Below are positions 8,018 to 33,630 of a stretch of DNA of 64,000 nt, one piece after another. The stretch comes from Halomarina salina (lineage in GTDB: Archaea > Halobacteriota > Halobacteria > Halobacteriales > Haloarculaceae): NCBI RefSeq assembly GCF_023074835.1, contig NZ_JALLGW010000001.1, positions 992,001-1,056,000 of the forward strand. Reading direction: 5' to 3'. Each line of letters starts with the position of its first letter. The stretch's first letter is position 1. Both the position numbers and the translations under genes were made by a program. Below the pieces are notes generated by a model. It made no database searches. It saw only the letters and a list, made by a program, of their open reading frames with translations, and was not told the origin of the DNA.

Positions 8018-8482
8018 TCACTCGTCCGCGTCCCGGTCTATCTCCGTTCTCCGTCCGCTCAGTTCCTCTGGCTCGAGGGTGTACAGCTGGATGTCGAGGT
8101 CGCGCTTCGAGCGCCCCCAAATCTCGAACAGCGGTCGTTTCGCCTCGCCGTACTGCTCGATGTGCTCGACCGTCAGCTCCTCCACGGCGACGTCCTCCAG
8201 GGCACCGACGGCGACGACGCTCCGGTAGGTGTCGCCACCGTCGGCCTCCTCGTAGACGACGAGGCGCGAGCGTGGCGAGGAGCCCAGGAACTGCCGCTTC
8301 TCGCTCTCGGGCGTCGACACCAGCCGCATGTAGAACGCTCGTTCGGCGGCGTCGTAGCCGTAGGAGATCGGAATCGCGTACGGCGTGCCGTCGTCGGCGA
8401 GCGAGAGCACGCCGGTCTCGTGACGGCCGAGGAACGCGTCGATCTCCGACTCCGTCATCTCGGTCTCCTGTGCGAGCGTCAT
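8018..8482 (-). CDS. pyridoxamine 5'-phosphate oxidase family protein
   Basis: A 154-residue flavin/split-barrel protein of the haloarchaeal PNPOx-like type. A helical start (MTESEIDAFLGRHETGVLSLA) leads into the barrel strands DGTPYAIPISYGYD, then RAFYMRLVSTPESEKRQFL and SRLVVYEE. Members bind FMN or F420, or are simply barrels, and the true pyridoxamine oxidase residues are not evident. It probably acts in the cytoplasm as a flavin- or deazaflavin-dependent reductase. It is monocistronic with about 100 bases between it and the downstream-facing bat-type regulator. Confidence 0.83.
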   Translation of the reverse strand: MTLAQETEMTESEIDAFLGRHETGVLSLADDGTPYAIPISYGYDAAERAFYMRLVSTPESEKRQFLGSSPRSRLVVYEEADGGDTYRSVVAVGALEDVAVEELTVEHIEQYGEAKRPLFEIWGRSKRDLDIQLYTLEPEELSGRRTEIDRDADE

Positions 8483-8581
8483 TCCTACTCGACCGATGAG
8501 ACGGTCCGCATAAACCGTTTCTCCTCCGCCGGTTCCCCGTTCCCCGACGCCGACCGTCCCGCCACGGTCCGCTACGGCCCG

Positions 8582-9274
8582 CTACGAGTCGGTCTCCAGC
8601 ACGTCGTCGAGGAGCTTCCGCTGTGCGGTGACGAGGTGTTCGGTGAACGTCGACTGGGAGATGCCGAGTTCGTCGGCGAGTTCGGTCGCGTTCGCCCGTT
8701 TCGGGCGTTCGAAGTAGCCCCGCTCGTAGGCCGTCCGCAGCACCTCGTGCTGGCGGTCCGTCAGCTTCCCCCGGTTGACGAACAACCGTTCCTCGCGGGT
8801 CCCCTCCAGCGGTGGCTGGAGGAGCCGCTGCACGTCGACGCCGGTGAAGCGCTCCCGGAACTCGCCCATCACGGTCTGGAGCTGCTGGAAGTCCTCGGCG
8901 TGGAACACGAGCGTCAGGTCGCCGTCCTCGGCGACGTAGCGGTGGACGGGGCAGCCGAACTGCCCGAGACACTCGCAGGGGCAGTCGACGTCCCCGTCGT
9001 GGGTCGTGCGATAGAGCGTCGCGGTTCCGTAGGAGAAGACGGGGTCGGCGAGGTCGGTCAGTTCCTCGTTCTCGTCTGCTCCGACGCCGTCCGGGTCGGA
9101 CTCCCCCGCGTCGTCGCCGTCCGGTACCATGAACTCGGTGACGCTCCCTGTGTCGCCGAGCGAGACGCTCGTGGCGGTCTGGTCGACGACCCTCCCGGTG
9201 ACCGCGGAGACCCGCGCGATGGGACAGCCCTCGGGAGCGGCGAACCGCACCGTCGCACGAATCCCTGGTGCCAT
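8582..9274 (-). CDS. bacterio-opsin-activator-type HTH-10 regulator with CPCECLGQFGCPV motif
   Basis: A 230-residue haloarchaeal transcription regulator. The N-terminal sensing region (1-150) carries a cysteine-rich stretch, CPCECLGQFGCPV (about 97-109), common to one subclass and possibly metal- or redox-sensing. The C-terminal HTH-10 domain (about 170-225) contains LTDRQHEVLRTAYERGYFE and the recognition region ELADELGISQSTFTEHL. It would bind promoters of unknown target genes. It lacks a kinase or PAS domain, unlike Bat itself. ATG at 9274 is the first start. Confidence 0.87.
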   Translation of the reverse strand: MAPGIRATVRFAAPEGCPIARVSAVTGRVVDQTATSVSLGDTGSVTEFMVPDGDDAGESDPDGVGADENEELTDLADPVFSYGTATLYRTTHDGDVDCPCECLGQFGCPVHRYVAEDGDLTLVFHAEDFQQLQTVMGEFRERFTGVDVQRLLQPPLEGTREERLFVNRGKLTDRQHEVLRTAYERGYFERPKRANATELADELGISQSTFTEHLVTAQRKLLDDVLETDS

Positions 9275-9707
9275 CGTCTCGGCGGGAGTTCGGACGGGGG
9301 CGTATTGATGGTGTGGGTCGCGACGGGATGGCGGGTCGCGACGGGCTGACTCGCCGGGATGTGAGCGAGGGAACGAGCGGTCGCGAGACCCCTGTTCCCG
9401 ACGAACGAGAATGATGCCCGGAGTGTATCTCTCGTCGCCAACGCCGCCGGCGCACAGCTCGCCGCTGACCGTCTCACCGAGATGGCCATCCTCGTCGCCG
9501 TCGCCGTCGTCCTCTCGGCGGCCGACTACGTGTGGCGGTCGGCGCTGCTCCGGCGGCTACTCCCCTGACGCTACTCTCTCGCCCGTTCTGTTCCGGACCG
9601 TCGTCGGCCGCCAGACGCAGTCCTCGGTTCGCGGTGGTCATCGGCGGAACTCCCATCGGCTGAGAACGACCCGCCGTCACTTATCCGCTGACGTCGTACC
9701 GACTGGT
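9275..9707. other. intergenic stretch, no confident gene
   Basis: In this stretch of about 430 bases the only coding-like trace is an open frame ending at 9567. Its last 28 codons (ATG at 9482) would encode a single hydrophobic helix with a basic tail. Without a plausible promoter or homology I leave it uncalled; it might be a gene remnant. A TTATCC element at 9681-9686 probably serves the zinc microprotein at 9708. Confidence 0.4.
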
Positions 9708-21943: not shown

Positions 21944-22642
21944 ATGCACGAGCGAGCGTACGGCCTCGACGACGTGAGCGTCGTGATGGGGGCGTACAAC
22001 GAAGTCGACGCCATCGGGCCGGTGCTCGACGACATCGAGGCGGCGACCGACGGACGGGCGGAGGCGGTCGTCGTCGACAGCTCCGACGACGGGACCGCCG
22101 CGGTGGCCCGCGACCACGGGGCGACCGTCGTGGACCAGCCACCGAGGGGCTACGGAGTCGCCGTGAGCCGGGCGTTGCGGGAGGCGACCACCCCGGTTCG
22201 GGTGACGACCGACTGCGACGGGACCTACCCGATGGACCGCATCCCCGACTTCCTCGACCTGGTGAACGAGGGGTACGACGTCGTGAGCGGCGACCGACTG
22301 TACCACGGTGCGCGGACGATGCCGCGCGTCAACCGGGCGGGGAACCACGCGTTCGCGGCGCTGGCTAGCCTCCTCTCGGGGAGGCGACTGCACGACGTGA
22401 CGACCGGGATGCGCGCGTACCACGAGTCGGTCGTCGAGTCCATCGAGTGGACGGAGAACACGGGCCTCTCCGCCGAACTGTTGATCCGCCCGGTGATGCG
22501 GGGCTACCGCGTCCGGGAGGAACCCATCGACTACGACGAACGCATCGGCGAGACGAAACTCGACCCGTTCGCCGGCGGCAGGGCCATCGGCGGGTCGATT
22601 CTGACCGTCTGCGCCGAGGAGCGACGCCGACGACGGTCCTGA
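21944..22642 (+). CDS. family 2 glycosyltransferase (dolichyl-phosphate sugar synthase-like)
   Basis: A 232-residue GT-A glycosyltransferase. VSVVMGAYNEVDAI is the nucleotide-sugar entry strand, EAVVVDSSDDGT carries the first acidic pair, and VRVTTDCDGTYPMD has the metal-binding D-x-D. There are no C-terminal membrane helices. It resembles AglJ/DPM1-type enzymes that charge dolichyl phosphate with a sugar on the cytoplasmic membrane face. A GCTTAAC element about 30 bases before the ATG suggests a leaderless promoter. It converges on the GT39-type gene (25-base gap), so the two may be partners: one makes the lipid-linked sugar, the other uses it outside. Confidence 0.87.
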   Translation: MHERAYGLDDVSVVMGAYNEVDAIGPVLDDIEAATDGRAEAVVVDSSDDGTAAVARDHGATVVDQPPRGYGVAVSRALREATTPVRVTTDCDGTYPMDRIPDFLDLVNEGYDVVSGDRLYHGARTMPRVNRAGNHAFAALASLLSGRRLHDVTTGMRAYHESVVESIEWTENTGLSAELLIRPVMRGYRVREEPIDYDERIGETKLDPFAGGRAIGGSILTVCAEERRRRRS

Positions 22643-22666: not shown

Positions 22667-24856
22667 CTATCGCCGGGCGCTGCCGTCCGAGACGGTCGCG
22701 TTCGTCCCCCGGTCGGGCCCCGAGTCGTCGAGGGCGACCGGCACGCAGCGGTCGGGGACGGGACAGCGTTCGGCCGTCGGCGACAGCGCCCGGTGCGTCC
22801 CACCGCGCGACTCGACGGGGAACGTCACCTCGTAGCTGTAGCCGCCGGTCGGCCCGGTGTCGACGAACACCTCGACGTGGACCTCGTCGGACTCGTCGAG
22901 TGCGACGCTCCCGTCTGACCCGGTCGGTTCGAGCGTCGGTCCGGTGACGCTCACGGTTCCGTCCTCCACGACCACCGACAGCGAGAGCGACCCGCCCGCG
23001 TCGGTTCCCACGAGGTACGCGGAGCCGCGGTCGGTCGCGAGGCGAACCGTCGTCCCCGTCACGGTCGCCGGTCGCGCGAGCGTGGCGTTCACCGCGAGTC
23101 GCTCGCCCGCGAGTCGGTCGACCGGGACGAGCGTCGCCCGGACAGTCGAGTCGTCGGTGGGGACCCACGTCCCGGTGTAGACGTAGCGGTAGAGGTCGCG
23201 GTCCCCGAACCGTGACGCGACATCGAGTTCGCGGGTGTCGCCGAGAGCGTAGACCGCTCTCCCGTCGTAGGCGGCGTCGTTCCGGAGCGCCTGGAACGGG
23301 TGGTTCAGCCACGGTCCGTACGTCGCCGGGAGGAAGACGACCGACTCCTCGGGCGGGCCGTCGTCGAAGGGTGCGTACCCGGCGCTGTACTCCTCGGTCA
23401 CCCCGGCGTTCGGGGCGACGCGTGCACCGACGACGGCCGCACCGACGCCGCTCGCGACCACCGCACCGACGACGAGTATCGCCACGACGACCTGCGGCGC
23501 TCGGTCGGCACCGACGCCGTCCCGGCGGGCGAGCCACGCCGGCACCGTCTCTCGTAGCCACTCGACCGCGGCGACGACGGCGACGGCGGCGAACACCGCC
23601 GTCGGAACGACGAGGTCGTAGTGGTAGTACGGGCCGAGGTAGTGGACGAGGCCGTCGGTGTCGGACGCCAGCGAGCCGAGGACGTTGTAGTTCCCCCAGA
23701 ACGCGACGTTCCCGCCCGCCACGGTGAGGTACGTCGCGGCGAGGAGCGCGGGGCGGACGCGGTCGCCCCCTCCCTCGACGCCACTCGACCCGTGCACACC
23801 GACGACGAAGACGAGTAGCAGGCCGACCGCCGCTGTGACGGTCCCGAGCGGTCCGGCGACGACCCACTCGGCGAACAGGTCGCGGAGGACGAGCGCGTTC
23901 GCGCGGAGCGCGAGTTCGGGTGTGTAGTCGACGGCGTGGCCGAGCAGCGCGTGTCGCCCGAAGCCGACGCCGTCGGTCGGCGCGAACGCCAGGTAGGGGA
24001 ACACGAACGGGTCGCCGGTCACGACGGCGTTGTAGCCGAGGGCGACGAGCACCCCTACGGACCCTATCGTCGCGGTGACGATGCGACGGACGAGGAGTCC
24101 GCGAGTCTCGCTCTGTGACGTATCGGTCTGCACCCGCCACACGCGCGAGCGGACGGCGGTGGCGAGCGCGTGGCCGACGAACGGGAGGGCGAACAGCACG
24201 GCGGTGTAGGGTCTGGCGAAGAACGCTACGCCGACGGCGAGGCCCGCCAGCGCCGCGTCCCGGACGCTCTCGCGGCGCTCGCCTCGGAGGTACCAGACGG
24301 CGAAGGCGACGTTCAGCGTCGTCGTCAGCGCGTACGGGAGGAACAGGCCCGCGTGGACGACGAACAGCGGCGTCCCGAGCAGGAGGACGCCCGCGAGGAC
24401 GCCGACCCGCGTGTCGAACAGCTCTCGGCCGAGGGCGACGACGCCCGCGACGAGCGAGGCCGAGATGGCCGCGGTCGCCAGCGAGTACCCGCCGAGCAGT
24501 CGGCCGAGCGCGAAGACGGCCGCCGGGACGGGTGCGTACTTCGAGTAGAGGCCCTCTGCCCCGTCGACGAAGAACCAGGGTCGGAACGACTCCTCGACGG
24601 GTGGTCGGAGGAACAGTCGGCCGTGGAGCAGCAGGTCCGCCTGCTGGAGGTAGACGCCCTCGTCGTGGTTCACCGAGAGGTAGGGGAACAGTGTCGACGC
24701 GACGAACAGCGACAGGATAGCGCCGACGGCGGCCAGGACGACCGACGCGAGGTGGCCGCGGTCGAGGTGGTCGAGCGACGACCGGAACGCCTCTGTGGAG
24801 AGCCCACGGGAGCGGTAGCCATCGTCGCCGTCGTCGTCGGGCGACCGACCCGACAT
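22667..24856 (-). CDS. GT39-type polytopic glycosyltransferase (dolichyl-phosphate-sugar:protein/glycan transferase-like)
   Basis: A 729-residue membrane protein. It has about ten to twelve hydrophobic segments from residue 37 to about 470, then an extracellular beta-rich domain of about 240 residues. The first outer loop carries SVNHDEGVYLQQADLLLHG, with Asp 65-Glu 66 in the acidic motif of GT-C/ArnT/PMT-like enzymes. They take sugar from a polyprenyl/dolichyl phosphate. Its ATG directly follows the stop of the ferric transporter ATPase gene (24856/24857), so it is the last gene of the operator-controlled iron operon. That context is unexpected for a glycosyltransferase. The acceptor is unknown. 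Confidence 0.82.
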   Translation of the reverse strand: MSGRSPDDDGDDGYRSRGLSTEAFRSSLDHLDRGHLASVVLAAVGAILSLFVASTLFPYLSVNHDEGVYLQQADLLLHGRLFLRPPVEESFRPWFFVDGAEGLYSKYAPVPAAVFALGRLLGGYSLATAAISASLVAGVVALGRELFDTRVGVLAGVLLLGTPLFVVHAGLFLPYALTTTLNVAFAVWYLRGERRESVRDAALAGLAVGVAFFARPYTAVLFALPFVGHALATAVRSRVWRVQTDTSQSETRGLLVRRIVTATIGSVGVLVALGYNAVVTGDPFVFPYLAFAPTDGVGFGRHALLGHAVDYTPELALRANALVLRDLFAEWVVAGPLGTVTAAVGLLLVFVVGVHGSSGVEGGGDRVRPALLAATYLTVAGGNVAFWGNYNVLGSLASDTDGLVHYLGPYYHYDLVVPTAVFAAVAVVAAVEWLRETVPAWLARRDGVGADRAPQVVVAILVVGAVVASGVGAAVVGARVAPNAGVTEEYSAGYAPFDDGPPEESVVFLPATYGPWLNHPFQALRNDAAYDGRAVYALGDTRELDVASRFGDRDLYRYVYTGTWVPTDDSTVRATLVPVDRLAGERLAVNATLARPATVTGTTVRLATDRGSAYLVGTDAGGSLSLSVVVEDGTVSVTGPTLEPTGSDGSVALDESDEVHVEVFVDTGPTGGYSYEVTFPVESRGGTHRALSPTAERCPVPDRCVPVALDDSGPDRGTNATVSDGSARR

Positions 24857-26008
24857 CTATCGGGCCGGGTACCAGGCGAGTTCGTGGTCGGCGACGAGCG
24901 TCACCGTCACCGGGTCGCCCACCTCGAACTCCTCGGTGTGGTTGTGGAGACAGCGCACGACGGTGCCGTCGTCGAGTTCGACGTGGTAGACGAACGACGG
25001 GCCGGTGTACTGTCGGCGGACGACGGTCCCGTCGGCGTCGCCGGCCGCGGCCGGTTCGGCCCGGAGGTCGTCGGGGCGGACGAGGACGTCGACCCGACTC
25101 CCCGCGTAGCCGTCGCCGAGCCCCGCCAGCAGGTCCCGGTCGTAGGAGCCGACGCTCGTCTCGACGGCGTCCGCCGTCACCTCGGCGGGGAGGAAACTGG
25201 CCTGCCCGAGGAACGAGGCGACGAACCGCGACGTCGGGTTCTCGAACACCTCCTCGGGTGGACCGACCTGTTCGAGACGGCCGTCGTTGACGACGGCGAT
25301 GCGGTCGGAGATGGAGAGCGCCTCCTCCTGGTCGTGGGTGACGGAGACGGCGGTGACGTTCGCCTCGTCGAGGATGCGCTTGACCTCCTCGCGCATCCTG
25401 ACCCGGAGGCGCACGTCGAGGTTCGAGAACGGCTCGTCCAGCAGGAGGACGTCCGGTTCGGGCGCGAGCGACCGGGCGAGCGCCACGCGCTGGCGCTGGC
25501 CGCCCGAGAGGTCCTCGGGCGAGCGGTCGCCGTACTCCGACAGGCCGACGAGGTCGAGCAGGTCGTCGACGCGTGCTTCAGCCTCCGGCGAGTCCGGGTC
25601 CTCGAGGCCGAACGCGACGTTCTCGGCGACGGTCAGGTGGGGGAACAGCGCGAACTCCTGGAACACCAGTCCCACGTCTCGCTCCTCCGGGGGCGTCTGC
25701 GGGCCGTCGCCGGCGACCACCGTGCCGCCGACCTCGATGGTGCCCTCGGTGACCGATTCGAGGCCCGCTATCATCCGGAGGGTCGTCGTCTTCCCGCAGC
25801 CAGAGGGGCCGAGGAGCGTGACGAGCTCCCCCTCGTGGACGAGCAGGTCGAGGTCGGAGACGGCGGTCTCCGAGCCGTAGCGTTTACCGACGCCGGACAG
25901 TTCCAGCACCGGGTCGGCGGTCGGCGACCGGTCAGTCGGGGATGCACGACGCCCTGCCACCGCGTCGGCGGGTGCTGCGTCCGTCGTCGAGGTCGGGTTC
26001 TCATGCAT
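24857..26008 (-). CDS. ferric-type ABC transporter ATP-binding protein
   Basis: A 383-residue ATPase of the FbpC/PotA class. An acidic, Ser/Thr-rich extension of about 30 residues precedes Walker A (GPSGCGKTT, about 67-75), the Q-loop (VFQEFALFPHLT), signature LSGGQRQRVALARSL, Walker B LLLDEPFSNLD and the H-loop VTHDQEEA. A TOBE_2-type regulatory domain occupies about 290-383. It powers uptake through the permease at 26001-27644, whose end it overlaps by eight bases. Together with the FbpA-like lipoprotein this is most likely a ferric importer. Confidence 0.92.
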   Translation of the reverse strand: MHENPTSTTDAAPADAVAGRRASPTDRSPTADPVLELSGVGKRYGSETAVSDLDLLVHEGELVTLLGPSGCGKTTTLRMIAGLESVTEGTIEVGGTVVAGDGPQTPPEERDVGLVFQEFALFPHLTVAENVAFGLEDPDSPEAEARVDDLLDLVGLSEYGDRSPEDLSGGQRQRVALARSLAPEPDVLLLDEPFSNLDVRLRVRMREEVKRILDEANVTAVSVTHDQEEALSISDRIAVVNDGRLEQVGPPEEVFENPTSRFVASFLGQASFLPAEVTADAVETSVGSYDRDLLAGLGDGYAGSRVDVLVRPDDLRAEPAAAGDADGTVVRRQYTGPSFVYHVELDDGTVVRCLHNHTEEFEVGDPVTVTLVADHELAWYPAR

Positions 26009-27644
26009 CGTCGCTCCCCCCGCCGAGCAGCGGAATCATCGAGAGGCCGGAGACGGCGATCAACACGAGTGCCGGTAGCGCCGCACGTCCGTAGTAGCCA
26101 GCCTCCTGAACACGCCAGATGTAGGTCACTATCGTTGTAAACCCTGTCGGATGGAGGATGAGCGTGGTGTCGAGTTCCTTCATCGTCGTAAGGAAGACGA
26201 GCGCCGCCCCGGCGAGCAACCCCGGCGAGATGAGCGGGAGCGTCACCCTGCGGAACGCGCTCCGCGGCGACGCGCCGAGCAACCGGGCCGCGCCGACCAG
26301 TTCCCGGTCGACGCCGAGCACCGACGAGCGCGTCGTGCCGACCGCCTGCGGCAGGAACCGGACGACGTAGGCGAACACGAGCAGCGGCAGGGACTGGTAG
26401 AGCAGCTGCGCCGCCCCCGGCCCCACGCTGTCGCGGAGCCACTGGCTGGAGAAGAAGACGAGCGAGAGGCCGAGGACGACCCCCGGCATCGCGTACCCGA
26501 GGTACGTCGCCCGGTCGACGACCCGCGAGAGGAACGAGTTCGACTGCCCGGCGTAGTACGCCACCGGGAGCGCGAACAGCACCGTCACGAGCGCGGCGAC
26601 GGCCGCGACGTACACCGAGTTCGTCGCGAACGCGGTGCGGAACGCGAGGCCACCGCCGCTGTACCCCGGCGACGACCGGACGAACCACATCGCGAGGATG
26701 CCGACGGGCAGGACGAGCGTGAACAGGCTCACCAGCGCGGGGAGGAGCGCGGCGACCCAGCGCAGGCGACCGAGCGAGAGGACGGGCCGGGTCGACGACG
26801 TCGTCCCGTACCCCCCGGTAGGGCTGCCGCTGACCCGCGCTTCGAGTGCGAGAATCACCGCCGTCACCGCGAGCAGCTGCATCGACAACAACGTCGCGTT
26901 CGCCCGTCCCGCGCCGAAGCTGTTCAGTTCGACGTAGATGACGCGCGTGAACACGTCGTAGCGCATGATGGAGGGCGTCCCGAAGTCCGAGAGCGTGTAG
27001 AGCGCGACGAGCAGTGCCCCGGCGGTGACCCCCGGCGCTATCTGGGGGAGGATGACGCGACGGAACGTACTCCGGTAGCCGTGGTTCAGCGTCCGGGCCG
27101 CCTCTATCTGGGTCGTGTCGAACGAGAGCAGCGAGGCCCGCGTCGTGAGGAAGACGTAGGGGTAGGTGAACAGCGTCAACACGAGCGCGGTCCCGCCCAG
27201 TCCGTACACCGTCGGCAGGCCGACGCCGAGCGGTTCGAGCACGTCGGCGAGCGCCCCGCTCGGGCCGAACGTCGAGACGTAGGCGAACGCGCCGATGTAG
27301 CTCGGGACGACCAGCGGGAGCGCCGCGAGGACCGTCCAGAGCCGTCGGAACGGCAGGTCGGTCTGGACCGTCAGGACGGCGAGCGGGACGCCGAGGACGA
27401 TGGACGCTGCCGTGACGACGAGGACGAGGGCGAGGCTGTTGACGAGGACGCTGGTCGCCGTGTGCGACGTGAGCAGCGTGAGGGCGGCGTCGGCGTCCAT
27501 CGTCGACACGCTGAGGAGCAACCAGGCGAGCGGGGACACCACCGCCGCGGCGACGGCCGCGGCGACGAGGGCGACGGCCAGTCCCGGCCCCTCGTCGTCG
27601 CCGAGGCGTCGCCGGAGTCGCTCGACCTGTCCACTCGAGGCCAT
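26001..27644 (-). CDS. ferric-type ABC transporter permease (FbpB-like, fused two-domain)
   Basis: A 547-residue permease built of two homologous halves of about six membrane helices each, as in FbpB/SfuB proteins. Each half has an EAA-type cytoplasmic loop: EAARTLNHGYRSTFRRVILP in the first and GAARLLGASPRSAFRRVTLP in the second. Both dock on the ATPase. Being fused, one copy makes the whole channel. It begins 18 bases after the substrate-binding protein stop and its end overlaps the ATPase start. Confidence 0.92.
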   Translation of the reverse strand: MASSGQVERLRRRLGDDEGPGLAVALVAAAVAAAVVSPLAWLLLSVSTMDADAALTLLTSHTATSVLVNSLALVLVVTAASIVLGVPLAVLTVQTDLPFRRLWTVLAALPLVVPSYIGAFAYVSTFGPSGALADVLEPLGVGLPTVYGLGGTALVLTLFTYPYVFLTTRASLLSFDTTQIEAARTLNHGYRSTFRRVILPQIAPGVTAGALLVALYTLSDFGTPSIMRYDVFTRVIYVELNSFGAGRANATLLSMQLLAVTAVILALEARVSGSPTGGYGTTSSTRPVLSLGRLRWVAALLPALVSLFTLVLPVGILAMWFVRSSPGYSGGGLAFRTAFATNSVYVAAVAALVTVLFALPVAYYAGQSNSFLSRVVDRATYLGYAMPGVVLGLSLVFFSSQWLRDSVGPGAAQLLYQSLPLLVFAYVVRFLPQAVGTTRSSVLGVDRELVGAARLLGASPRSAFRRVTLPLISPGLLAGAALVFLTTMKELDTTLILHPTGFTTIVTYIWRVQEAGYYGRAALPALVLIAVSGLSMIPLLGGGSDDA

Positions 27645-27662: not shown

Positions 27663-28892
27663 TCAGAGGACCCCGACGTCTCGGAGCAGGTCGAGCGTCG
27701 GCTGGATGTTCGACAGTTTGCTCAGGTCGACGTCGGGCGGGTTCAGTTCGTCGATGGTCGGGAGGCCGCCGACCGGCGGAATCTCAGACACCATCGGGTA
27801 GGCGTACGTGCGGGTCGCGAAGAACTCCTGGGCCTCCGCCGACAGCAGGTGACGGAGGAACGTGAACGCGAGCTCCTGGTTGTCGCTCGCCGAGAGGACC
27901 TCCGCGCCGGCCGCGTTGATGAGTGCGCCCGCGTCGCCGCTGGTGAACGCCAGTTCGAGCGGGGCGTTCGGTCGCGACTCGCGGACCCGGAGGGCGTAGT
28001 AGTGGTTGGCGAACCCGGCGGCGAGTTCGCCGTCGGCGACGGCGTTCGAGACGAGGAACTCGTTGTTGTACTCGGTGACGCCCGTGTCGAGCATCCCCTG
28101 GAGCCACGTCTTCGTCGTCTCCTCGCCCTCGATGAGTCGCATCGCGGTGACGAACGCCTGGAACGCGCCGTACGTCGGTGCCCAGCCGACCGCTCCCGAC
28201 AGCGCCTCCGTCTCGGGGAACTGCATCACGCTGTCGGGGACGTCCTCGGCCGACAGCGCCTCGGTGTTGAACGGGACGGCGCGGGCGCGTCCCGCGGTGC
28301 CGACCCACTCGTCGCCCGGGTGGAACTGCTCGGGGACCGGCTTCACGACCTCGGAAGGGAGTTTCGCGGTCAGGCCCTCGTTTGCGACGACGGCGAGCGA
28401 CCCGGCGTCGACGGACCAGAACACGTCGGCGGGCGTCGCCGACCCCTCGTTGATGAGGGTGTTCGCCGCGTCGGCCGTCCCCGAGGCGCGTTCCCTGGCC
28501 TCGAACTCCGGATAGATGTCCTCGAACGTCGCGAGCAGGTCGCGGTAGAGGCCGCCCTCTCCGCCACCGAGGTAGATGGTCAACTCGCCGCTGAGGTCCG
28601 GGAGGTCCTCGATGGACGTCCCGCCGACGTCGCCGCGACCCTCCGCGAGCGCCCCGGAGCCACGGAACTCGCCGAAACTCGGGTCGGCGGTGCCGTTCCC
28701 GCTCCCGTTCCCGCTGTCGTTCCCCGTCTCGTCGCCACCGCCGAAGAGGCCCGTACAGCCGGCGAGGCCGGCCAGACCGGTCGCACCGAGTCCGGCGAGG
28801 ACGCTCCGTCGCCGGTAGGTGCGACGGGTGGTGTGACCGCTCGTGCGAGGACTGTCGGTGTCTCGGCGGTCGTCGGTCGGTCGGTCAGTCAT
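27663..28892 (-). CDS. ferric-binding lipoprotein of ABC transporter (FbpA-like), Tat-exported
   Basis: A 409-residue extracellular solute-binding protein. RRRSVLAGLGATGLAGLAGC is a twin-arginine signal ending in a lipobox (Cys 46), followed by an acidic Gly/Asn tether. The mature protein has WVGTAGRARAVPFNTEAL, GWAPTYGAFQAFVTAMR and FANHYYALR. The last contains adjacent Tyr 298-Tyr 299 at the place of the iron-coordinating Tyr pair of FbpA proteins. It would capture Fe3+ outside and hand it to the permease. ATG at 28892 overlaps the end of the upstream gene by eight bases. Confidence 0.9.
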   Translation of the reverse strand: MTDRPTDDRRDTDSPRTSGHTTRRTYRRRSVLAGLGATGLAGLAGCTGLFGGGDETGNDSGNGSGNGTADPSFGEFRGSGALAEGRGDVGGTSIEDLPDLSGELTIYLGGGEGGLYRDLLATFEDIYPEFEARERASGTADAANTLINEGSATPADVFWSVDAGSLAVVANEGLTAKLPSEVVKPVPEQFHPGDEWVGTAGRARAVPFNTEALSAEDVPDSVMQFPETEALSGAVGWAPTYGAFQAFVTAMRLIEGEETTKTWLQGMLDTGVTEYNNEFLVSNAVADGELAAGFANHYYALRVRESRPNAPLELAFTSGDAGALINAAGAEVLSASDNQELAFTFLRHLLSAEAQEFFATRTYAYPMVSEIPPVGGLPTIDELNPPDVDLSKLSNIQPTLDLLRDVGVL

Positions 28893-30060
28893 CGGCGACC
28901 ACCACCGTCGACTCGGCGGCGGCGTCACAACGGGCCGACAGCGTCGCCAGACAGTCCAGCCAGTCGCGCATGTACTCGCCGCAGTGGTTCAGGAACGCGC
29001 CGTTCGTCCACTCCTCGAAGTCGCCCTCGGCGAGCGCGTCGGCCATCGCCGCGAACGCCTCCTCGAAGCTCTCGGCGTCCTCGCCGACGTCGTCGACGAC
29101 CTCCCAGACGTGCTCGTTGAGTTCGAGGCCCGCCACCTCGTTCGCCAGGTCGTCGAACGTCGAACGCGGGGCCTTGTTGTGCTCGCAGAGCGGGCCGCCG
29201 TTGTACACCTGCTTGTCGAGGACGTCCGCGGCGCGCTTGAGGAACAGCCCCGACCAGATGTCGTCGAACCGGCCGACGTCCCACTCGTTGTCGTCCATCG
29301 GAAGCTGGTAGAACGCGGGGACGACCTCCCGGCGGAACGCGAGGTTCATCGAGCAGACGGTGAGGTACTGGCCCTCGCTCGCGACGAAGTCGCGCTCGAA
29401 GTCGTCGGCGGTGGTGCGCGTCTCGGCCTGGCCCTGCAGGTCGCCGTCCATGAGGATGCGGACCGCGTCGAGGTCGGGGACGTTCGTCCAGAGGCCCTGC
29501 GAGGCGACGACGCTCTCGACGTGTTCGACGTCCGTCTCGACCGTCTCGTCCATCGCCGCGTACGGGTAGCCGCGGGGGTAGAGGTCGGTGTCGCTCTGGT
29601 AGAGGACGTTCACCCACGACTCGTCCGAGCGGACCGACTTTACCCGACCCTCGAACGCGAGGTTCTCCATGTGGGTGCCGAAGAAGTCCGCGTCGGGGTG
29701 GGGGAGGGTGTCGTCGTCGAGGAACACGCCGTACTCGAAGCGTTCGTGCGCCCAGAGGTACAGCAGGCCGAACGAGGTCTGGGCGTGACTCGCCGCGGGA
29801 ATCAGGTGGTCGAACTCGGCCACGTCGTTGGCCGCGAACCACGCCTCGCGGTCGCTCCCGTCGAACACCGCCCCGTCGACGCCCTCCTCGTCGAGCATCG
29901 TCCGCATCGCCTCGACGTCGCAGAACTCCTCGGTGACCAGCACGAAGAACAGTCGGTCGGCGTCGAAGCCGTGCTCTCGGGCGTTCTCGACGTACGCTCG
30001 AACGCACTCGTGCTCTCGAATCGTCGGAACGACGACACAGGTGTCCTGCTCCGTACTCAT
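28885..30060 (-). CDS. reversibly glycosylated polypeptide family protein (GT75-like; alpha-1,4-glucan-protein synthase-like)
   Basis: A 391-residue cytoplasmic protein resembling the reversibly-glycosylated-polypeptide/UDP-arabinopyranose mutase family. CVVVPTIREHECV is the N-terminal strand, GVFLDDDTLPHPD is a metal/nucleotide-binding Asp triad (115-117), RGYPYAA follows, and DDIWSGLFLKRAAD lies in the C-terminal half. Plant members self-glycosylate from UDP-sugars or interconvert sugar ring forms; archaeal roles are unclear. It is the first gene of the iron operon, 15 bases downstream of a perfect DtxR-like palindrome, and overlaps the FbpA-like gene by eight bases. It may supply a sugar nucleotide for the GT39 enzyme at the operon's end. 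That is inference. Confidence 0.78.
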   Translation of the reverse strand: MSTEQDTCVVVPTIREHECVRAYVENAREHGFDADRLFFVLVTEEFCDVEAMRTMLDEEGVDGAVFDGSDREAWFAANDVAEFDHLIPAASHAQTSFGLLYLWAHERFEYGVFLDDDTLPHPDADFFGTHMENLAFEGRVKSVRSDESWVNVLYQSDTDLYPRGYPYAAMDETVETDVEHVESVVASQGLWTNVPDLDAVRILMDGDLQGQAETRTTADDFERDFVASEGQYLTVCSMNLAFRREVVPAFYQLPMDDNEWDVGRFDDIWSGLFLKRAADVLDKQVYNGGPLCEHNKAPRSTFDDLANEVAGLELNEHVWEVVDDVGEDAESFEEAFAAMADALAEGDFEEWTNGAFLNHCGEYMRDWLDCLATLSARCDAAAESTVVVADD

Positions 30061-30075
30061 TGCCCCGGCCAACGA

Positions 30076-30089
30076 TTAGGCTCGCCTAA
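30076..30089. promoter_or_regulatory. DtxR-like iron operator (box 1)
   Basis: TTAGGCTCGCCTAA, a perfect 6-2-6 palindrome, lies 15 bases upstream of the first gene of the ferric-transport operon. It has the TTAGG...CCTAA shape of DtxR-family boxes. DtxR-type iron regulators (SirR, Idr) are known in haloarchaea. At this distance it would cover the core promoter. Confidence 0.75.
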
Positions 30090-30102: not shown

Positions 30103-30116
30103 TTAGGCGGGCCAAA
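30103..30116. promoter_or_regulatory. DtxR-like iron operator (box 2)
   Basis: TTAGGCGGGCCAAA has the same 6-2-6 design with five of six arm bases paired. Its centre lies 27 bases from box 1. The pair suggests two repressor dimers, and it could also influence the neighbouring GMC gene end region. Confidence 0.6.
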
Positions 30117-30208: not shown

Positions 30209-31816
30209 TCAGAGCCGTTCGGCGATGTGTCCGGCCGCCTTCAGCGAGAGAGCGGCGATGGTGAGCGTGGGGTTCATCGCCCCGCCCGTGACGAAGACGG
30301 AACTCCCGGCGAGCGTGAGGTTTGCCAGGTCGTGACTGCGCAGGCGGCGGTCGACGACGCTCTCGGCCGGGTCGGTCCCCATCCGCGTCGTGCCCATGTG
30401 GTGGTACGCCGGGCCGGTGTTCTCGGGGCCGACCGTCCAGGTGACGTCCGCACCGAGTTCGGTCAGGATCTCGCGTTGCACCTCGTTCGCTCGCTCGATG
30501 GTGCGTCGCGTCCGGTCGTCGACGCGCCACACCACGTCCGGGACGGGGTTCCCGTGGTCGTCCGTGCGCGAGCGGTCCAGTCGAATCCGGTTCTCGGCGC
30601 TCGGGAGCTGCTCGACCAGCGCACCCATCGCGACGTGGGTGCCGTACGCCTCCCGTATCTCCTCCAGCAACGCGTCGCCGAACGTGTCCGCTTCGAGGGC
30701 GACGTCCGTGGGTGCCGGGCCGGCGTAGTTGAGGAACTCCAGTTTGATGGCGGTCCGCGAGTCGTCCGGCCGGTCGTAGAACTGGTGGCTCTCGGTGGTG
30801 TTGAACCCGACGTGCTTCTGCCGGGTCGGTTCGTCGAGCGTCCCGCCGACGCCCGCGAACAGGTGGTCCATGAAGTACCGACCCACCGCGCCCGAGGAGT
30901 TCGCCAGACCGTTCGGGTACCGCTCGCTCGCCGAGAGCAACAGGAGGCGGGGCGTCTCCACCCCGCCCGCGGCGACGACGAACTCGCGTGCCTCCTGTCG
31001 GTGTTCCTCGCCACCTGGCGTCGCGTAGACGGCGGCGGTCACCCGCTCGCCCGCCTCGTCGTGGTCGAGTCGCTGGACGGGGACGCGGTCCAGAACTCGG
31101 GCTCCGTTCGCTTCCGCGATATCGACGTGTCGCGTCGCGTCGTACTTCGCACCCGAGGGGCAGACGGGCTTACAGGTGCCGTACCCGACGCAGGCGCTCT
31201 GCCCGTCGACCGCCTCCGAGTTCCGCGCGTTCGGTACCGAGTGCGTCGCGACTCCCACCGATTCGCACGCCTCGGCGAACAGCGAGTCGCTGTACGACGG
31301 GGGGAACGCCGGGAGCGGATGTGGCTCCTCGCGTGGCGGTTCGAACGGGTTATCCGAGGCCCCCGAGACGTTCAACGCCGCTTCGGCGGCGGCGTAGAAC
31401 GGCCGCAGGTCCCCGTAGTCGATGGGCCAGTCGTCGCCCATGCCGACCGACGAGTCGAGTTCGAAGTCCTGCTCGTGCAGGCGCATCACCATCCCCTGCC
31501 AGTGGAGCGTGCTGCCGCCGACGCCCTTCACGCGCGACGCGTTCAGCGGGTAGTGTCGCTCGCCGGAGGCGCTGTAGGCGTCGCGCTCGCCACCCACGTC
31601 CCAGACCGGTTTCGCGCTCCCCGGGCGAAGGTGTCGTTCCATCCGCTCTGGACGCTCGCTCGGTTCGAACCGCGGGCCGGCGTCGAGGACGACCACCTCG
31701 TGACCCCGCTTCGACAGGTCGGCGGCGACGATGGCACCAGCCGGGCCGGCCCCGACGACGCAGACGTCCACTCCCGACGACGGCGTACGGTCGGTGGACT
31801 CTCCCGATGTGGTCAC
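30209..31816 (-). CDS. GMC family dehydrogenase catalytic subunit with putative [3Fe-4S] cysteines
   Basis: A 535-residue FAD enzyme. VCVVGAGPAGAIVAADLSKRG is the FAD motif (from residue 18) and GVGGSTLHWQGM the FAD-lid. YHHMGTTRMG has the catalytic His near 472 and AMNPTLT the Asn near 515. Cys 209, 215 and 219 (C-x5-C-x3-C in ACVGYGTCKPVCPSG) match three of the cysteines in bacterial FAD-glucose dehydrogenases with a [3Fe-4S] cluster. GTG at 31816 is preferred; an ATG at 31891 would overlap the upstream gene by 38 bases. It should be exported with the preceding Tat subunit and oxidise a sugar or alcohol at the outer membrane face. Confidence 0.88.
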   Translation of the reverse strand: MTTSGESTDRTPSSGVDVCVVGAGPAGAIVAADLSKRGHEVVVLDAGPRFEPSERPERMERHLRPGSAKPVWDVGGERDAYSASGERHYPLNASRVKGVGGSTLHWQGMVMRLHEQDFELDSSVGMGDDWPIDYGDLRPFYAAAEAALNVSGASDNPFEPPREEPHPLPAFPPSYSDSLFAEACESVGVATHSVPNARNSEAVDGQSACVGYGTCKPVCPSGAKYDATRHVDIAEANGARVLDRVPVQRLDHDEAGERVTAAVYATPGGEEHRQEAREFVVAAGGVETPRLLLLSASERYPNGLANSSGAVGRYFMDHLFAGVGGTLDEPTRQKHVGFNTTESHQFYDRPDDSRTAIKLEFLNYAGPAPTDVALEADTFGDALLEEIREAYGTHVAMGALVEQLPSAENRIRLDRSRTDDHGNPVPDVVWRVDDRTRRTIERANEVQREILTELGADVTWTVGPENTGPAYHHMGTTRMGTDPAESVVDRRLRSHDLANLTLAGSSVFVTGGAMNPTLTIAALSLKAAGHIAERL

Positions 31817-31853
31817 GAGTGCCTCCCTCTCGACTCCCCTCGTGAGCGACCGG

Positions 31854-32396
31854 TCATCGGTCGGGAGCCTCCCGATACGAGGTCGTCCCACCGGCGTACC
31901 CCGGCGGGTTCTCCAGCCCCGCCATCCCGGCTCCGGTGGGCGAACGGTAGAACGCGAACAGGAGTTCGTTCACGAGGTAGTAGCGGACGCGCTGTTCGGC
32001 GGCCCCATCGGGGTCGGCCTCGGCCTCGTCGACGCTCATGTAGTCGAGCGTCTCGCGGCGGTCGGCCGACGAGAGCGCCACGTACCGCTCGTCGTGGAAC
32101 GTCGCGGTGTACTCGTCGAGCGCGTCGACGGCCTCGGCGACGCCCGTCGCGTACGCGCCGTCCCCATCGACGCGGCCGCCGGTGTACGTCCGGACGAACG
32201 AGGCGACGCCGTCGACTGCCGACGGGTAGACCACCTCCGCAATCGCGACGAGGGTCGCCATCTCGTGGTCGCCGACCGGGTGGTCCTCGGTCCCCTCACT
32301 CCACACGTCCGACTCGGTGAGCGCCGAACACCCGGCTAACGCACCGCTCCCCCCCGCAGCGAGCGCGGCGAGCGCGTCCCGACGGGTCAACCGCAT
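31854..32396 (-). CDS. Tat lipoprotein small subunit of the Fe-S GMC dehydrogenase
   Basis: A 180-residue protein with twin arginines at the very start (RLTRRDALAALAAGG) and a lipobox (ALAGC). The body has EMATLVAIAEVVYPSAVDGV, which matches the start of the gluconate 2-dehydrogenase subunit 3/gamma-subunit family, and RVRYYLVNELLFAFYRSPTG at the end. It would escort the flavoprotein through Tat and anchor it. ATG at 32396 is preferred to the adjacent GTG at 32399. An operator-like box lies 11 bases upstream. It is transcribed first, with the catalytic subunit gene after it. Confidence 0.83.
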   Translation of the reverse strand: MRLTRRDALAALAAGGSGALAGCSALTESDVWSEGTEDHPVGDHEMATLVAIAEVVYPSAVDGVASFVRTYTGGRVDGDGAYATGVAEAVDALDEYTATFHDERYVALSSADRRETLDYMSVDEAEADPDGAAEQRVRYYLVNELLFAFYRSPTGAGMAGLENPPGYAGGTTSYREAPDR

Positions 32397-32407
32397 CACG
32401 CTGTGTT

Positions 32408-32421
32408 TTTGGCAGACCTAA
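32408..32421. promoter_or_regulatory. DtxR-like iron operator (box 3)
   Basis: TTTGGCAGACCTAA has the same 6-2-6 plan as boxes 1 and 2 (four of six arm bases paired) and sits 11 bases upstream of the GMC small-subunit gene. Its right half ACCTAA and left half TTTGGC both occur as half-site types in the other boxes. It is weaker than box 1. Confidence 0.5.
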
Positions 32422-32583: not shown

Positions 32584-33414
32584 TCAGTAGTCGATTCGAC
32601 TGAGCGTCTCGTCGAGCGCGTCGTGATACCGGCCACCGAAGAGGTGGACGTGAACGAGCAGGGGGTAGAGCCGGTAGACGAACCGACGGGACTCGAAGAA
32701 GCCAGCGACGATCTCCCGTCGCTCCCGATATCGGTCGAAGAACGCGTCGCCGAACGTCCCGGTCCAGTCGACGTACGCGAGTTCTACCTCGGGGTGGGCG
32801 TAGTAGATCGCCGGGTCGAGGAACGCCGTCACCGCCCCATCACGGGCGAGGACGTTCGTCGTCCAGACGTCGCCGTGGATCAGCGAAGGGCTCTTCGGCT
32901 CGGTCAGTAATTCGGTCAGGTCGTCGCACACGGCCTCGACTCGCGTCTCGGTGTCCGCCGAGAGGTCCGCCAGCGAGAGGAGATGTTCGAGCCTGTGCTC
33001 GCGGTAGAACTCGACCCAGCTGTCGGTCCACGGGTTGGGCTGGTGGACGGGGCCGGTGACCGTGTCGAAGTCGAGGCCGAACGCGGCGCTACCGTGCTCG
33101 TGGAGCGCTGCGAGGTGGTCGGCTGCATCCCGTGCGACGGCGGCGTCGTGGTCCGTCTCCCCCTCGATGAATTCGACGAGGAGCAGGTCCGGGTCCGCGT
33201 GGTACACCGTCGGAACGGGCAGGTCGCTGTACTCGGCGAGGTAGCGGAGCATCCGGCCCTCTGTATCGAGCGGCGTCTCGCCTGTTTTCGCGACGACTCG
33301 ACGGTCGTCGGCGAGCGTTGCACGTTGTACTGTTCCGATCTGTCCCCCCGTGAGTGCTCGGCACTCGACTGGCGGCGAACCGAGGGCAGACTCGATAGCG
33401 GCTTCGAGGTCCAC
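32584..33414 (-). CDS. fructosamine kinase family protein
   Basis: A 276-residue kinase-like protein. LTGGQIGTVQRATLADDRRVVAKTG is the N-lobe with the ATP Lys, HEHGSAAFGLDFDTVTGPVHQPN is typical of fructosamine-3-kinases, and SLIHGDVWTTNVL is the catalytic loop (HGDxWxxN). DPAIYYAHPEVELAYVDW contains the metal-binding Asp. Family members phosphorylate fructosamines on glycated proteins so that the adduct falls off, a form of protein repair. GTG at 33414 gives the length and N-terminus normal for the family; longer upstream starts have Arg-rich non-conserved sequence. Confidence 0.87.
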   Translation of the reverse strand: MDLEAAIESALGSPPVECRALTGGQIGTVQRATLADDRRVVAKTGETPLDTEGRMLRYLAEYSDLPVPTVYHADPDLLLVEFIEGETDHDAAVARDAADHLAALHEHGSAAFGLDFDTVTGPVHQPNPWTDSWVEFYREHRLEHLLSLADLSADTETRVEAVCDDLTELLTEPKSPSLIHGDVWTTNVLARDGAVTAFLDPAIYYAHPEVELAYVDWTGTFGDAFFDRYRERREIVAGFFESRRFVYRLYPLLVHVHLFGGRYHDALDETLSRIDY

Positions 33415-33630
33415 AGTGACCAGACCGGTACCAGTTCGAAGAGTGTTGGTGTCGTTCGCTCCTGATAACCCATCTCGCAGACCTCGGGGACCAGTCACGT
33501 CTGCTGCGTGTTCTTCGTCATCGTATCGAGAGCGAGGTCTGATGCCTCGGGCTACCCTTGGTGGTGCCGTGGCACGCCCAACCCCGAGTCGTAACGTATT
33601 CAAACAGCGACCGGATACTACGAACTGCGC

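Follow-up and report, generated by a model that had tools for sequence, protein, structure and literature searches.

The locus examined here raises the question of why a haloarchaeon should place a dehydrogenase that appears to hold an iron-sulfur cluster behind what looks like an iron operator. The window (the whole stretch of 64,000 nucleotides from Halomarina salina that was analysed) carries a gene pair annotated across haloarchaea only as "GMC family oxidoreductase" and "gluconate 2-dehydrogenase subunit 3", for which a testable function can be proposed. In our reading, to which we give a probability of roughly 0.8, the pair is an exported FAD/[3Fe-4S] GMC-type dehydrogenase that is made by iron-short haloarchaea and is part of an iron-acquisition module. 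The genes and boxes of the pair are as follows, in window positions.

31854 to 32399, minus strand: small (hitchhiker-type) subunit, PF13618, with Tat signal and lipobox; start at GTG 32399 or ATG 32396
30209 to 31891, minus strand: GMC dehydrogenase catalytic subunit with C-x5-C-x3-C; the frame is 560 aa from a GTG
31160 to 31192, minus strand: codons of the three cluster-ligand cysteines (Cys209, 215 and 219 in 535-aa numbering)
32408 to 32421, no strand: iron box TTTGGCAGACCTAA, TTTGGC-AG-ACCTAA (6-2-6), in the promoter of the pair, at a position conserved in orthologues
30103 to 30116, no strand: iron box TTAGGCGGGCCAAA, by pattern match
30076 to 30089, no strand: iron box TTAGGCTCGCCTAA, by pattern match, a short way ahead of the mutase-like gene and the transporter operon

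An internal GTG at 31816 is the likelier start of the catalytic subunit, giving a protein of 535 aa, and the positions 209, 215 and 219 that the earlier note gave for the C-x5-C-x3-C cysteines fit this frame. The closest PDB sequences are those of Burkholderia FAD-glucose dehydrogenase (BcGDH, E 3e-87) and Gluconobacter fructose dehydrogenase (FDH, E about 3e-81). A predicted model (pLDDT 86.8) retrieves nine rows of BcGDH/FDH with Z of 44-47 in a fold search, the next family scoring 35, and 511-518 residues align with these structures at an rmsd of 2.5-2.6. The three cysteines of the motif align with Cys212, Cys218 and Cys222 of the Burkholderia enzyme, which hold its [3Fe-4S] cluster, while Burkholderia Cys213 is no cluster ligand and is disulfide-bonded to Cys152 in the small subunit (extracts of PMC6719666). 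The match to three of four bacterial cluster cysteines that had been claimed from the spacing is thus in part corrected: all three ligands are present, and the fourth cysteine belongs to the disulfide. Both partners of that disulfide are absent from the window pair, there being no Cys213 equivalent in the GMC protein and no cysteine in the small subunit other than that of the lipobox. Loss of the motif in close homologues had been named as what would speak against a cluster; the three ligand cysteines are invariant in 42/42 haloarchaeal GMC proteins (41 relatives plus the window), as are the catalytic His and Asn, and the FAD-side (FAD-linking) His is present in 40/42. H472 and N515 are invariant in the 40-row GMC alignment; set A1 excludes L083, which has a broken frame, and set A2 excludes L079, which has a stop codon. 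Together, the PDB matches and the three ligand cysteines support a cluster-type GMC dehydrogenase, and we regard it as confirmed, at the level of predicted features, that the window protein is of the FAD/[3Fe-4S] dehydrogenase type of BcGDH/FDH, with the cluster itself predicted. We infer that a sugar would be its substrate.

Relatives were divided into linked orthologues, with a GMC identity of at least 62%, and paralogues, with a GMC identity of 57% or less. A further cysteine, Cys184 (535-aa numbering; window 31265-31267), is kept in all 34 linked orthologues and lost in three of the eight GMC paralogues (L096, L099, L101). At L101, seen in one genome, three tandem GMC paralogues lie behind one small subunit, without an iron box.

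The small subunit matches PF13618 with E 1.5e-7 (32.3 bits, cut-off 23.4), and its N-terminus, LTRRDALAALAAGGSGALAGC, contains a Tat motif and a lipobox. The description of a Tat lipoprotein therefore suits the window protein and is too narrow for its relatives: the twin arginine is invariant in 40/40 alignment rows, and the lipobox cysteine is seen, among the N-termini compared, only in the window, L057, L058, L069 and L070, most members being without it. Searches of solved structures by sequence, by profile and by fold (model pLDDT 82.6) gave no PDB relative of the small subunit, which is no argument against the PF13618 family. Its likeness to the Burkholderia small subunit follows from the Pfam family and the gene pairing. 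In a survey of 59 genomes of the same order as Halomarina salina, the small subunit and the GMC protein occur in the same 45 genomes and are both absent from the same 14.

The genes that follow the pair in the window are these.

28885 to 30072, minus strand: RGP-family (PF03214) sugar-nucleotide mutase-like protein, by family and PDB matches
27663 to 28928, minus strand: FbpA-type ferric-iron binding protein, by PDB match
26001 to 27644, minus strand: ferric-type ABC permease
24857 to 26008, minus strand: ABC ATP-binding protein
22691 to 24772, minus strand: GT39-like membrane glycosyltransferase (PMT_2, DUF7846)
21953 to 22624, plus strand: GT2, closest solved relative dolichol-phosphate mannose synthase; it faces the minus-strand genes

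The order on the minus strand is thus small subunit, GMC, RGP-family protein, binding protein, permease, ATPase and GT39-like protein. The binding protein is closest to ferric-binding protein (E 1.9e-57) and aligns over its Tyr-Tyr region. For the RGP-family protein the best match is PDB 7yua/7xpr (E 1.1e-23), entered under the name "Transglycosylse", and a weaker one is UDP-arabinopyranose mutase. An annotated locus of Halobaculum roseum has the same gene order as the window, under names that include gluconate 2-dehydrogenase subunit 3, GMC family oxidoreductase, alpha-1 4-glucan-protein synthase, iron ABC transporter permease and glycosyltransferase family 39. A gene of the fructosamine-kinase family (PF03881; window 32584-33603, minus strand) stands immediately before the pair; a "Ketosamine kinase domain protein" (HVO_1017) is listed as 15.6-fold up under iron starvation in H. 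volcanii (extracts of PMC11349517). As a part of the module this gene was rejected, a homologue being absent from the relatives' loci listed.

Among the 59 surveyed genomes, the RGP-family protein is found in 44/45 of those with the GMC protein, GT39 in 43/45, GT2 in 42/45 and the permease in 44/45; among those without it, the corresponding counts are 3/14, 3/14, 3/14 and 9/14. Presence was called at E 1e-3 for the small subunit, 1e-60 for GMC, GT2 and permease, 1e-40 for the mutase-like protein and 1e-20 for GT39, and every gap among GMC-positive genomes falls in an assembly that is no more than 81% complete. Within 40 well-assembled genomes, the mutase-like protein, GT2 and GT39 are present in 33/33 with GMC and in 2/7 without, and the permease in 33/33 and 5/7, respectively; these counts and their Fisher values ignore shared ancestry and are a guide only. 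GMC without the glycan genes was never found among the good assemblies. Three genomes (G011, G030 and G052) carry the glycan genes and no GMC, so that the glycan can do without the enzyme. Genomes that lack the enzyme often still have the transporter and seldom the glycan genes. The sequence comparisons place the pair in a larger module with the ferric ABC transporter, the mutase-like protein, GT2 and the GT39-like protein. The earlier note, whose cluster-type dehydrogenase, Tat small subunit and iron operator are all supported, had missed this co-inheritance with the ferric ABC transporter and three glycan-type genes of the same window.

Two kinds of locus from genomes without GMC are of separate interest. 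L130 and L131 (G011 and G030, of one genus) have the RGP-family, GT39 and GT2 genes together, without ferric permease or GMC pair and with no box at one mismatch, as if the glycan were uncoupled from iron. L121-L128 have ferric ABC genes, with iron boxes close by in 6/8 and no RGP-family, GT39 or GT2 genes nearby.

The tie to iron comes from the boxes. That at 32408-32421 is two changes off a perfect palindrome and has, as had been reported, the same 6-2-6 layout as the boxes at 30.08 kb. The pattern TTWGGYNNRCCWAA, picked after the boxes had been seen, occurs three times in the window with one mismatch allowed; shuffles give an expectation of 0.02. With up to two mismatches, the pattern TTAGGCNNGCCTAA is found at 27 places in the organism's own genome; in three pairs of these boxes the spacing is exactly 36 bases. 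Several boxes precede a start codon by 4 to 11 bases, and among the products encoded downstream are a FecCD permease and four binding proteins of the siderophore type (Peripla_BP_2). Two proteins of the genome are over the cut-off for PF02742 (DtxR-family). One box of the same genome (L035 8432-8445) stands before a DUF7552/DUF7551 protein (8460-9356) in a siderophore-transporter region. The window box alone is unconvincing because boxes with two mismatches are the weakest kind, and at several of those sites no gene starts close by (by a crude gene caller). The TATA-like element of the window's own pair promoter is poor.

Comparison among relatives is more decisive. Loci L051-L103 represent 53 loci of 57 places, L104 giving no match and two weak signal-peptide-only places being omitted. 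A box is present at the promoter of the unit in 29/34 linked orthologous pairs (window included) and in 0/8 paralogous pairs. Of the five orthologues that lack a box of their own, two (L053, L087) have a degenerate one and three (L057, L058, L076) lie inside the transporter operon. A TATA-like element directly precedes the box in 26/29 promoters, so that the box lies between this element and the start codon, and the gap from its end to that codon is mostly 6 to 12 bases. Ten genomes have the small subunit within the transporter-GT39 gene group without an orthologous GMC neighbour, and in these the GMC gene is elsewhere. When the loci of such lone GMC genes were fetched as a test, 10/10 had their own box; in L111 and L116 it falls within the extended tblastn match, 25 and 61 bases in, which puts it upstream of a plausible start, and the GMC of G014 (L117) was not counted, as it starts near a contig end.

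Beyond this set, named loci were compared, the best 80 of 583, from genera that include Halobacterium, Haloferax, Haloarcula, Halorubrum and Natrinema; 74 of them have the box, among them the Halobacterium salinarum orthologue (L146). Of the six among these best 80 of 583 without a one-mismatch box, L141 and L187 have a two-mismatch box, L145 has none, and the loci L153, L159 and L186 begin close to the end of a contig. In the same best 80 of 583 loci the pattern matches 149 times with one mismatch, compared with 11 for the reversed and 2 for the permuted pattern, and 120 times with no mismatch, compared with 0 and 0. Eight "lone" loci among them were at first without a box; in the five that were rechecked, the GMC match is preceded by a box at a distance of about 470-510 bases, the place expected for the start of a small-subunit gene. 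In many relatives the RGP-family, binding-protein and GT2 genes have boxes before them as well. Since the box occupies the same place in orthologues and is missing in paralogues, we consider the conserved iron box over the pair's promoter to be real at the family level, as judged by sequence. The claim of an iron operator at the pair thus gains support from orthologue conservation and from the siderophore-type transporter genes that share the box.

What the enzyme does for such cells is less secure. The mutase-like protein, GT2 and GT39 would make a surface glycan, and oxidation of this glycan is the role that we infer as likeliest, at somewhat under even odds. The small subunit would carry the folded catalytic subunit through Tat and hold GMC outside, where the flavin would oxidise a sugar or alcohol and electrons would pass to the cluster and on to an acceptor. 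No multi-haem cytochrome c beta gene was found among the scanned neighbours or in the annotated Halobaculum roseum locus; PF13442 (CBB3-type cytochrome c domain, one cytochrome family) has no match in the genome, and PF00127 (copper-binding, halocyanin-type) has ten. The acceptor may be something other than the bacterial cytochrome c, namely halocyanin or ferric iron. Acid or keto groups on the oxidised surface glycan could then hold ferric iron near the FbpA-type binding protein. The complete chain, in which iron starvation leads to a cell-attached glycan that, once oxidised outside by the Tat-exported [3Fe-4S] GMC, acts as a fixed iron ligand feeding the FbpA-type transporter, is a tentative proposal and on the unlikely side. 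Against the main reading it can be said that making an iron-sulfur enzyme when iron is short is poor economy, unless the enzyme serves uptake.

In the main rival the enzyme is an extracellular ferric reductase: a sugar or alcohol is the donor, and the surface cluster reduces Fe(III) or ferric chelates for uptake. We consider it doubtful, given that the glycan genes are co-inherited more tightly than the permease. FbpA-type binding proteins take ferric, not ferrous, iron, and this is a point against reduction as well. The same iron box and the frequent linkage to the ferric ABC transporter would suit a reductase, as would the absence of the CBB3-type cytochrome c domain from the genome and the surface position of the cluster in the Burkholderia relative (extracts of PMC6719666). 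Glycan oxidation is favoured over ferric reduction because the distribution of the enzyme is nested inside that of the glycan genes. That the enzyme oxidises sugar for energy in the ordinary way, with iron control incidental, is distinctly improbable: glucose and fructose dehydrogenases are indeed the nearest characterised relatives, but the repeated linkage is to iron transport and glycan genes, and an iron-repressed iron enzyme makes little sense for catabolism.

Of the two directions of control that the earlier note left open, shut-off by iron is the one favoured, from a promoter position like that in siderophore-type transporter genes. Box position favours repression by an iron-loaded DtxR-family regulator, with the pair on when iron is scarce, because it is the position seen before the FecCD and siderophore-binding-protein genes. 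An iron-loaded regulator of the Idr/FerR type would sit on the box and block transcription; a repressor bound there would block a leaderless promoter, and the pair would be made as iron falls. That the box is instead an activator site through which iron turns the pair on is very unlikely. An iron-sulfur enzyme would suit iron sufficiency, and Idr proteins are said to have activating targets too, but the box comes after the TATA-like element and mostly 6 to 12 bases ahead of the start codon, as in transporter genes. A chance sequence, suggested by the two mismatches off the palindrome and by the other two-mismatch genome sites without a gene start nearby, is scarcely credible and was rejected by the comparison among relatives, with its box at the same place in orthologues and none in paralogues.

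The proposed reading ties the pair to iron starvation and suggests that archaea, in which iron acquisition has received little study, may have an uncharacterised route of iron uptake linked to a glycan. If this is true, an oxidised surface sugar would gather iron in place of a free siderophore; nearly nothing is known of archaeal siderophores (introduction of PMC7407949). In the H. volcanii iron-starvation proteome the pair is not among the 19 proteins of Table 1, and "GMC" does not occur in the main text (PMC11349517); passages of PMC8305020 and PMC7407949 do not name the pair. A literature search, whose scope did not extend to the 2015 DtxR-regulon and 2011 Idr papers or the proteome supplement, found no work joining a haloarchaeal GMC dehydrogenase with iron, and the link between pair and iron may already sit in a published table.

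Several known systems resemble parts of this module. The palindromic box before siderophore-type transporter genes is like that of the haloarchaeal ferR/Idr (DtxR-family) regulon (Leyn and Rodionov 2015), and ferR signals before fhu genes are cited in PMC11349517 (in extracts). The transporter is like the FbpABC-type ferric ABC transporter in that its binding protein is closest to ferric-binding proteins, with the Tyr-Tyr region aligned; unlike that type, the haloarchaeal operon includes mutase-like and GT39 genes. The large subunit of Gluconobacter japonicus fructose dehydrogenase (PDB 7w2j) is the second best match to GMC in both sequence and fold. This enzyme is a cytochrome-linked enzyme of sugar respiration, unlike the haloarchaeal pair, and the bacterial family in general consists of sugar dehydrogenases with a cytochrome partner. 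The pair is like the alpha/gamma subunits of Burkholderia cepacia FAD-glucose dehydrogenase (PDB 6a2u, 8grj) in its GMC fold, its three [3Fe-4S] ligand cysteines, its His/Asn pair and its Tat small subunit. Unlike that enzyme, it has no Cys213/Cys152 disulfide pair and no cytochrome c beta gene nearby; it is archaeal, with an iron-box promoter and with glycan and ferric-transport neighbours. The catalytic and small-subunit features of the bacterial family thus appear to be kept, with no cytochrome partner found, and the haloarchaeal pair appears to belong to the iron regulon.
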